Under the pieces are notes generated by a model. That model ran no database searches, had not been told where the DNA came from, and was given only the letters and a program-made list of their open reading frames with translations. Below are positions 278-39,762 of a stretch of 64,000 nt of DNA, one piece after another; position 1 is the first letter of the stretch; each line of letters starts with the position of its first letter. The position numbers were made by a program, and so were the translations under genes. Source of the stretch: Verrucomicrobia bacterium S94 (GTDB lineage: Bacteria > Verrucomicrobiota > Kiritimatiellia > Kiritimatiellales > Pontiellaceae); NCBI GenBank assembly GCA_004299845.1, contig CP036201.1:2046001-2110000 (forward strand). Direction: 5' to 3'.

Positions 278-360
278 ATTCATACATTATAATGTATGGT
301 TTAATTGAAATACCCTGTTTATTAGAATAAAATGAATTTCACACATTATAATGTATGAAA
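278..360 (+). promoter_or_regulatory. Paired palindromic operators (locus 1) flanking a sigma-70-like promoter
   Basis: Two copies of the same palindrome lie at 278-301 (perfect core CATACATTATAATGTATG at 281-298) and 337-360. Their centres are 59 bp apart. Between them is a plus-strand promoter-like pair, TTGAAA at 305-310 and TAAAAT at 328-333, with a 17-bp spacer. The predicted start falls inside the second palindrome. The same paired arrangement with identical spacing recurs at 21079-21160 and 38788-38870. No convincing gene lies downstream on the plus strand before the convergent CII-like gene, so the transcript may be short or non-coding. The palindromes are seen directly; the operator role is inferred. 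Confidence 0.65.
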
Positions 361-20508: not shown

Positions 20509-21063
20509 CTACAAACCGACCGCCAGCGCCAGCAACTCCCGGCCGAGCTCTGAATTCTGCGCAACCAATCGCAGCTCATCATGGTCCTTTTCAACGAAAT
20601 TCCGGGCCTCAAGTTTTCTGAGATGCCGATAGAGCGCCTGCGGAGAAATCCCGGTTTTCACCGACAGCTCCAACTCCGACAATGCTCCCCTGGAAAGCTC
20701 CCGAACAATCGCAATCCGTCTATCGTGCGTAAACGCCGTAACCAATCTGATTACCGCCGGCACCGGCATATAATCATCATACGCACTGCGCAATGCAGCA
20801 AGCAACCGTTCCGCCCCCGCAACCTCCGGATTAGCCTGCGGACGGTACAGTACGAAATTTTTCTGGCGGCGCGGCAGAATCAGCCCCCGGGCATTCAGAG
20901 CGCGCAGATAGACACTGGTACACGGCTCCGTTAATCCCACCGCTTCCCCCAGATGAGTCACACCGGATTCCCCGGCCTGAAACAGCCTCCACAGCAGATA
21001 CAGCCGCTTTTCATTTGCCAGCACTCTGCATGTGCGCCAGAGGGATGGATGTAAATCTGTCAT
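20509..21063 (-). CDS. Double winged-helix (ArsR-like) transcriptional regulator
   Basis: About 184 residues made of two ArsR-like winged-helix units: residues ~5-75 (LANEKRLYLLWRLFQAGESG, LGEAVGLTEPCTSVYLRALN) and ~100-170 (FTHDRRIAIVRELSRGALSE, TGISPQALYRHLRKLEARN). The metal-binding cysteine motif of ArsR is missing, so the signal is probably not a metal. The frame is open to a GTG at 21084, but GGAGAAC places the start at one of two ATGs (21066 or 21063). One of the paired palindromes overlaps its predicted -10 (CATAAT) and the other lies 59 bp away, so autoregulation is likely. Divergent from a phosphatase gene. Confidence 0.75.
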   Translation of the reverse strand: MTDLHPSLWRTCRVLANEKRLYLLWRLFQAGESGVTHLGEAVGLTEPCTSVYLRALNARGLILPRRQKNFVLYRPQANPEVAGAERLLAALRSAYDDYMPVPAVIRLVTAFTHDRRIAIVRELSRGALSELELSVKTGISPQALYRHLRKLEARNFVEKDHDELRLVAQNSELGRELLALAVGL

Positions 21064-21078
21064 CATGTTCTCCATATA

Positions 21079-21160
21079 TTTCACACATTATGATGTATGA
21101 AATAACAGATTATCAATAAAACAATATATTTTATAAACTTCACACATCATAATGTATGAA
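21079..21160. promoter_or_regulatory. Paired palindromic operators (locus 2) in a divergent promoter
   Basis: Near-palindromes at 21079-21102 and 21139-21160 have centres 59 bp apart. Overlapping divergent promoters can be drawn between them. For the regulator on the minus strand: TTGATA (21116-21111), 18 bp, CATAAT (21092-21087, inside the first palindrome). For the phosphatase on the plus strand: TTATCA (21110-21115), 16 bp, TATAAA (21132-21137, touching the second palindrome). A bound protein would occlude both. Sites share half-sites TTCACACAT and ATGTATGAA with loci 1 and 3. Confidence 0.75.
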
Positions 21161-21235
21161 AATACAACTCACCTTTCCTTCTTCCCTGACAAACGTGGAT
21201 TGCACCCTGCCTCCAATCCCTCTATCTTTCTCCGC

Positions 21236-21739
21236 ATGGGATTGTTCGAGAAAAAATTTACGATCGTGGTGGCGTGTAAGGCGAATATTACCCGGAGCGC
21301 ATACCTGCATGGCTATATGGAACAGTACCTGAAGGAAAACTATCCATATGCCCGGAAAAAAATCCGTATCAAGTCGGCCGGTGTACGGGCGCGGCGGGGC
21401 AGTTCGGCCAATTCGGTCGTAAAACATGTGGCGAGAATCCATGGCTTCAGTCTGAAAACACACCGTTCCGATCCCTTCACAAAAAAACTGGTGAAGGAGG
21501 CAGACGTTATTCTGGTGATGGAACAGTGGCAGAAAGAGGAATTGCTGGAGCGCTACCCTAAAGCGGGGGATAAAATCTTCCGCATGATGGAATATCTGTG
21601 GCACGACGATCCGGCGGATATCCGCGACATTCCCGACCCTACCGGACAGAATACGAATGATTTTGAAGAGTTCATCGAGGTCGCTCACGCCGAAGTCGAA
21701 CGCATTTTCCGAGAACTGGGACGGGAAGGCATTATTTAA
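21236..21739 (+). CDS. Low-molecular-weight protein-tyrosine-phosphatase family protein
   Basis: About 167 residues from ATG 21236; the frame is open from 21152 but the extra residues are not family-like. The phosphate-binding loop fits C-X5-R-S (VACKANITRSAYL) after the first strand, and the general-acid aspartate lies in DIPDPTGQN. The loop is unusual: the common CxGNxCRSP is here CKANITRSA, without the second cysteine. The family includes tyrosine phosphatases and thioredoxin-linked arsenate reductases. An ArsR-like regulator divergent from it recalls ars operons, but the diagnostic cysteines of arsenate reductase are absent. Confidence 0.8.
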   Translation: MGLFEKKFTIVVACKANITRSAYLHGYMEQYLKENYPYARKKIRIKSAGVRARRGSSANSVVKHVARIHGFSLKTHRSDPFTKKLVKEADVILVMEQWQKEELLERYPKAGDKIFRMMEYLWHDDPADIRDIPDPTGQNTNDFEEFIEVAHAEVERIFRELGREGII

Positions 21740-38787: not shown

Positions 38788-38870
38788 TTTCACACATTTA
38801 AATGTATGAAATCTGTTATATTCAAAATGTTATATATAAAAATTAATTTCATACATTCGAATGTATGAAA
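38788..38870 (+). promoter_or_regulatory. Paired palindromic operators (locus 3)
   Basis: Palindromes at 38788-38811 and 38847-38870 have centres 59 bp apart; the second is perfect over all 24 bases. The 35-bp spacer is entirely different in sequence from loci 1 and 2 apart from being A/T-rich, with TTCAAA (38821-38826) and TATATATAAA (38831-38840) as promoter-like elements. The nearest downstream gene is the unknown coiled-coil protein at 38986. Neighbouring genes read only rightward, so this pair should control that gene. Confidence 0.65.
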
Positions 38871-38985: not shown

Positions 38986-39762
38986 ATGAATAAAAAAACA
39001 TCGCGCGCAGTTATCGGCACATTGTCATTCATCGCTCTGGTCAGTATGGGGTTCGCCATAATGACAACCTTAAAAAACCGAACTGCAAAAGAAGAAATCC
39101 TGGAACTCAAAACACAGATTGCGAATATGAAAGCGGCCGTGCCGGACGCGTCCAGAGAACCGGCGGTCATCTATCTTACCGGAAGCGGTGACACCAATGA
39201 AATGATGACTCTGAAGTCACAGCTGGCAGAAAAAGAAGCATTACTGGCGGAATTCCAGTCCAGCACCAACCATCCGGCTCAACGTAACCGCGATAACCGC
39301 CCGTCTTTTGAGGAACGTATGGCTCAAATGAAAAAGGAGAATCCCGAAGGCTATGCCGAAATGATCAGGCGTCGGGAAGAACGCTCAAGCCAGATGCGTT
39401 ATAATCTGGCGGAACGCACCGCGACATTTCTGGATATCGACACCTCATCCATGACTGAGGAGGAACGTACAAACCACGAACAGCTTATTGCAAACATGGC
39501 AAAAATCTGGGAAATGACAGCACTTTTTCAGGATCCGGAAGCTGCACCGGACCGGGAATCCATGCGCGAAATGATGGAAGCGGTCCGCGATACACGGCCC
39601 CTTCTCGAAGCAGAACGGGAAGTCATGTTCAAACAGCTCGGCTCCGATCTGGGATACGAAGGTGAAGATGCCGAAGCCTTCGCTTCATATATTGCTGAGA
39701 TCTATGAAGCCACTACCCTGAACCTTCCGGGCGGGCGCGGCGGAGGGGGCCGCGGACGCTGA
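38986..39762 (+). CDS. Unknown membrane-anchored coiled-coil protein with glycine-rich tail
   Basis: A 258-residue protein with one N-terminal membrane helix (about 8-28, VIGTLSFIALVSMGFAIMT), a coiled coil (about 33-50 and again 72-88), a region rich in Met, Glu and Arg (RMAQMKKENPEGYAEMIRR), a helical core and a Gly/Arg tail (GGRGGGGRGR). The met-rich helical part vaguely recalls periplasmic Spy/CpxP chaperones, but no LTxxQ motif is seen. No family recognised. Controlled by operator pair locus 3, so it is a probable target of the double winged-helix regulator. Confidence 0.7.
   Translation: MNKKTSRAVIGTLSFIALVSMGFAIMTTLKNRTAKEEILELKTQIANMKAAVPDASREPAVIYLTGSGDTNEMMTLKSQLAEKEALLAEFQSSTNHPAQRNRDNRPSFEERMAQMKKENPEGYAEMIRRREERSSQMRYNLAERTATFLDIDTSSMTEEERTNHEQLIANMAKIWEMTALFQDPEAAPDRESMREMMEAVRDTRPLLEAEREVMFKQLGSDLGYEGEDAEAFASYIAEIYEATTLNLPGGRGGGGRGR

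Follow-up and report, generated by a model that had tools for sequence, protein, structure and literature searches.

Putative tandem-ArsR autoregulators and their predicted palindromic binding sites at conserved, re-specified chromosomal addresses in Kiritimatiellota and related bacteria

Six 24-bp palindromes in the stretch of DNA analysed here are best explained as predicted binding sites of the family of an adjacent tandem-ArsR regulator, a presumed autoregulator, and as occupants of chromosomal addresses that appear to be conserved and re-specified. We assign this reading a probability of about 0.85. It is founded on comparison of sequences, in which cognate pairing of regulator and palindrome, conservation, covariation and decay were each apparent. 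The window is the whole 64-kb stretch, positions 2,046,001 to 2,110,000 of the 4.11-Mb single-contig genome of a Pontiella-like member of the Kiritimatiellota (G000).

The window palindromes, to which no strand is assigned, form three pairs (a, b and c). Pair a, at 278..301 (ATTCATACATTATAATGTATGGTT) and 337..360, lies between the convergent 3' ends of a dacA-like and a CII-like gene. Pair b comprises a regulator-proximal palindrome at 21079..21102 and a regulator-distal, phosphatase-proximal palindrome at 21138..21161, and pair c (38788..38811 and 38847..38870) is situated between a UPF0014 gene and the gene at 38986-39762. As a first, sequence-only reading of this DNA had described, the centres were 59 bp apart in 3/3 pairs and the 35-bp spacers were unrelated; only 0.00-0.03 matches are expected by chance, as judged from dinucleotide-preserving shuffles. 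Scanning the whole of G000 returned 26 sites at up to 3 mismatches, and the reversed-pattern control gave 0 matches under the same conditions. Palindromes of the window type (type A) formed 31 pairs across G000 and the same-genus species G042 and G017, with spacings of 57 bp (2 pairs), 58 bp (5), 59 bp (18) and 60 bp (6). The spacing is tight, without being exactly invariant. The AT-rich spacers were unconserved even between orthologous pairs of the three species, bearing out the earlier contention that the distance is what is kept. A second palindrome family in G000 contributed one pair, with a spacing of 62 bp. Some of the 59 generic sites of G048, a Kiritimatiellota-class genome, form evenly spaced triplets approximately 345 bp apart (for example C33:54462, 54811 and 55155).

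The gene beside pair b (20509..21066, minus strand) encodes a tandem ArsR-type winged-helix protein of 185 residues, presumed to be both binder and autoregulator on the evidence of Pfam and NCBIfam matches, an AlphaFold2 model and covariation. It matched HTH_5 (Pfam, E=9.2e-11) and, over two stretches, HTH_metalloreg (NCBIfam, 72 bits against a cut-off of 55). The model (pLDDT 95) contained two winged-helix units; residues 3-100 aligned with CzrA (Z 13.3, rmsd 2.8, 90 aligned) and residues 96-185 with BigR (Z 12.5, rmsd 2.3, 87 aligned). A likeness of the two units together to RPC62 or SelB, returned by Foldseek, was rejected: the TM-scores were low (~0.3) and the matches probably reflect just repeated winged helices. 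No ELCVCDL-like metal-site motif was apparent by eye. Transcribed divergently is a low-molecular-weight tyrosine-phosphatase-type gene (21236..21739, plus strand; PF01451, E=6.5e-20), and the initial identification of the two neighbours as a double winged-helix regulator and a phosphatase was upheld, as HTH_5/ArsR and PF01451 respectively. The regulators of several relatives are also adjoined by a divergent gene, belonging to one homologous cluster. In-frame fusions of the tandem-ArsR regulator with a further domain of approximately 150 residues at its C terminus, carrying the motif SGGQTGADRAALDAA, occur in G027, G037 and G033 (L121, L146 and L147).

Relatives of the regulator were present in 27/58 related genomes, at 1-7 copies each, the genomes compared being mostly draft MAGs. 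An alignment-based scan of named genomes confirmed 122 relatives, whereas a single-sequence scan of the contigs of those genomes gave no match; the 80 that were kept derive mainly from Kiritimatiellota, Lentisphaerota and Verrucomicrobiota MAGs, with a few from Planctomycetota. Literature searches returned no description of a tandem-ArsR regulator family. A palindrome of the form NNNCAYACNTNNNNANGTRTGNNN was found within 200 bp upstream at 61/79 named PVC regulator loci, mostly 20-40 bp before the start, and at 0/79 in either control (in-gene sequence or shuffled upstream sequence). For 18/79 regulators, no palindrome was detected in those 200 bp. Most regulator paralogues of the related genomes likewise had a palindrome upstream. 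Three palindrome families of G042 (ATTGCAAT, CTTCGAAG and CTGCGCAG) paired with three regulators and define types A, B and C. Generic sites numbered 9-59 in regulator-bearing genomes (G000, G042, G017, G024, G013, G019, G022 and G048) and 0-1 in regulator-free ones (G001, G004, G008, G012, G046 and G052-G054). The exceptions were G056, with 4 sites and no regulator found, and G055, whose regulator has a different operator core (GGACGGAC) and which has no generic site.

The window regulator has pair b at its own gene, and comparison of orthologous loci placed this pair at the same position in G042, G017 and G024; the regulator is very probably an autoregulator, as had been proposed. Autoregulation would appear to be the common denominator of the tandem-ArsR family. 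Type C regulators occupy a conserved neighbourhood, rsmE-regulator-pgpA (L166, L315, L096 and others), with mnmE adjoining in some genomes; these genes were named by eye from their protein sequences. A further paralogue, L168 (G005 C3:531934), is seemingly truncated (92 residues, internal stop) and retains a palindrome pair spaced by 45 bp.

Covariation was assessed over 89 regulator-operator pairs, of which 77 remained once thinned at 60% identity, with phylogeny not fully corrected; each regulator was assigned the best palindrome within 200 bp. The most informative residue for each operator position had a plausible location on a single protomer. Residues 53, 52 and 49 covaried with the dyad bases of the operator, residues 55 and 52 with position 11; the residues informative for these bases were enriched in the N-terminal recognition helix (47-59; p ~8e-4 and 7e-4). 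For operator position 6 the covarying residue was 70, in the wing of the N-terminal unit (z 17); for position 3 it was 143, where the C-terminal recognition helix begins (z 8.7-14). Where residue 70 was Arg or Lys, position 6 was C in 46/51 cases; Met or Leu at this residue went with T in 17/18. For Asn, Gln or Val the base was mostly a mixture of C and T, and the window regulator, which carries Asn70, fits this pattern: its own sites mix CAC and TAT. Since operator bases covary with recognition residues, direct binding by the tandem-ArsR family is the best reading, and binding of the window palindromes by the product of 20509-21066 is strongly supported by these comparisons. The earlier attribution of the palindromes to the adjacent double winged-helix regulator thus appears sound, given the covariation, the 61 loci with upstream palindromes and the empty controls. 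The companion suggestion of one palindrome for each winged-helix unit was not borne out, as the covariation would instead place both units on one half-site.

We infer physical binding, contact between dimers and autorepression as parts of the following mechanism. A PVC-wide paralogous family is envisaged in which each member would regulate itself via its cognate 24-bp palindrome. One protomer would sit on each half-site and one dimer on each palindrome, inasmuch as the N-terminal unit maps to inner and the C-terminal unit to outer bases: the former would read the inner bases, with its wing at base 6, and the latter outer base 3. In the subfamily of the window, two dimers would be held 59 +/- 1 bp apart and would probably interact. 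Each paralogue may possess about 5-20 sites of its own at conserved chromosomal addresses: the promoter of its own gene and certain others, the gaps that separate convergent genes, and intragenic positions. Selection would act on the DNA site, such that a change of resident regulator leads to re-specification and loss of the regulator leads to decay.

Approximately 14/15 type A addresses of G000 are matched by a palindrome at the orthologous position of the nearest relative, G042, while the palindrome centre shifts from AT, TA or CG in G000 to GC throughout G042. Five G000 addresses also match positions in G017. Pair c is conserved in G042 (L181) and G017 (L085), and the orthologue of pair a in G042 (L182) is a single site. 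More distant relatives are represented by loci selected for the presence of sites, which inflates conservation among them; comparing G000 with G042 avoids this bias. At one and the same codon of dus, the palindrome reads ATTATAAT in G000, ATTGCAAT in G042, CTTGCAAG in G024, CTTCATGAAG in G019 and CTTCGAAG in G021, mostly matching the variant that belongs to the regulator of the same genome. In several other genomes the loop encoded here is shorter and the palindrome absent, and G001, in which no regulator was found, keeps a near-palindrome. The dus loop of G010 (L344) carries an unrelated in-frame palindromic insert of approximately 75 bp (AAGCCACGAAGACACGAAG...) where its relatives have the palindrome, which suggests that the loop tolerates inserts.

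A resident regulator's variant at a shared codon was also seen in other genes, among them an amidohydrolase gene, where a single position bears type B in both G000 and G042, type A in G017 and, in G022, type C. In a radical-SAM gene, a type C palindrome is intact in G042, G022 and G024, all of which carry type C regulators. G000 has no type C regulator and keeps the encoded peptide HTCAGV, the palindrome having been lost by synonymous changes; in G017 the palindrome is wholly lost. As the alignment is free of gaps, this site originated in situ rather than through an insertion. In G009 (L351, about 1360-1810), the type C regulator between rsmE and pgpA is broken; only six sites are left in this genome, and two intact palindromes still surround the broken gene.

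What the sites away from promoters do is a separate question, on which transcription control (by roadblock or antisense effects) and chromosome marking seem to us about equally probable. In the former case, the system would be an ordinary local regulon in which the regulator represses itself and some 8 promoters, the other sites being roadblocks, operators of antisense promoters or tolerated noise; we hold this to be credible, if a little short of even odds. Most family members have a site at their own promoter, and in G000, where genes are mechanical ORF calls mostly backed by Pfam or homology, approximately 8/15 type A addresses are placed where promoter contact is possible. A histidine-kinase gene (L035), a Ser/Thr kinase gene (L032) and the pair c gene are each preceded, at 28-116 bp, by a pair; a site next to the first recurs in G042, G024 and G005, and this address, like some others, could serve as a promoter operator. 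Against a local regulon, 5/15 addresses lie between convergent genes (pair a; folB/accA, L024; hisG/fmt, L027; NAD synthase/ferredoxin-type, L028; reductase/pyruvyl-transferase, L033) and one lies inside dus (L026), with another at a gene boundary (L029). The same sequence contains 43 background gaps of 90 bp or more, 7 of which are convergent, so that the sites, unlike promoter operators, do not avoid such gaps. The flanking genes are housekeeping genes with no common function, and type C sites in G042 are mostly intragenic, seemingly regardless of gene structure. In-gene sites are moreover conserved, whereas most intragenic PhoB sites of E. coli are not (PMC10294691). The 35-bp spacers held no excess of sigma-70-like promoters over shuffled spacers (mean z -0.37), although the E. 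coli matrix used makes this a weak test; it follows that the proposed flanking of RNA polymerase by dimers does not hold generally. Of the probable regulon first suggested, the own-promoter sites stand and the simple promoter regulon does not. Chromosome marking of the kind performed by SlmA, Noc or MatP, whereby the palindromes would be landing sites for chromosome organisation or division control, has the same standing in our estimation. It would account for about 10-25 palindromes per factor dispersed with little regard to genes, a number comparable to those of SlmA (24-52 sites) and Noc (~70 sites; PMC4726725), and for addresses that are conserved and interchangeable between paralogues. 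It sits less easily with the several paralogues per genome, with a presence that is patchy within the genus and with the distribution in G000, where dnaA lies at 3.34 Mb and a skew change fits a terminus near 1.28 Mb: no clear ori/ter bias of sites was seen, the largest gap adjoining ori and one of 477 kb spanning the inferred terminus. More tentatively still, and possible rather than probable, tandem-ArsR families may mark fixed chromosomal positions, codons included, as an undescribed PVC chromosome-address system. The marking function, not the exact sequence, would then be conserved, and addresses would pass between paralogue specificities.

We regard it as unlikely that the palindromes are mobile or selfish repeats (of REP/BIME, MITE or Rickettsia-palindromic-element type) that spread and were later captured by the regulator. 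Such repeats would be dispersed and homogeneous within a genome, as observed, and the dus loop is slightly longer with the palindrome and bears the unrelated insert in G010. Nevertheless, addresses are shared between species, spacers are unrelated even at orthologous pairs, the radical-SAM site involves no indel and the sequence tracks the resident regulator. Y1/REP-type transposases (PF01797) do not track the motif, being found in 10/10 genomes searched, palindrome-bearing and palindrome-free alike. An Rfam search of the examined loci returned tRNAs only. The repeat-spacer-repeat geometry also recalls single-spacer mini-CRISPR arrays with 24-bp repeats and a 35-bp spacer, an idea to which we give next to no credence: the repeats are complete palindromes that differ within a pair, never exceed two in number, occur also singly inside genes, and are tied to a DNA-binding protein.

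The preferred reading, of re-specified sites of a tandem-ArsR family, presents a natural replicated experiment in which a DNA-binding protein and all of its genomic sites shift specificity together. It offers a readable recognition code (residue 70 and operator base 6, for example), and its intragenic and convergent-gap sites under selection bear on whether intragenic transcription factor sites do anything. To judge from the sparse literature found, hardly any regulators seem to have been characterised in the Kiritimatiellota and related phyla.

Each half of the regulator shares the ArsR fold and the HTH_metalloreg match with ArsR/SmtB repressors (CzrA, SmtB, NolR and BigR), which likewise have a palindromic operator at their own promoter, the counterpart here being predicted from sequence alone. 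Those repressors are single-domain chains of approximately 100 residues, whereas here two ArsR units are fused in 185 residues, with a 24-bp palindrome and 10-25 sites dispersed over promoters, convergent gaps and coding sequence. The nucleoid-occlusion systems SlmA/SBS and Noc/NBS, and MatP/matS, also pair a sequence-specific protein with tens of dispersed palindromes; as in SlmA- and Noc-type systems, the palindromes are not tied to promoters, and SlmA, too, derives from a transcription-factor family (TetR). The present system differs in its protein family, in showing no clear terminus depletion in G000, in its site pairs of fixed spacing and in its multiple paralogues with private sites. 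An in-gene location is shared with the PhoB sites of E. coli, but the intragenic palindromes described here keep their codon position across species and change specificity along with the regulator. REP/BIME and Rickettsia palindromic elements are also short, dispersed palindromes, frequently close to the 3' ends of genes or in frame within them; those described here, in contrast, have fixed addresses, show no sign of mobility and have a sequence that appears to be set by a DNA-binding protein.
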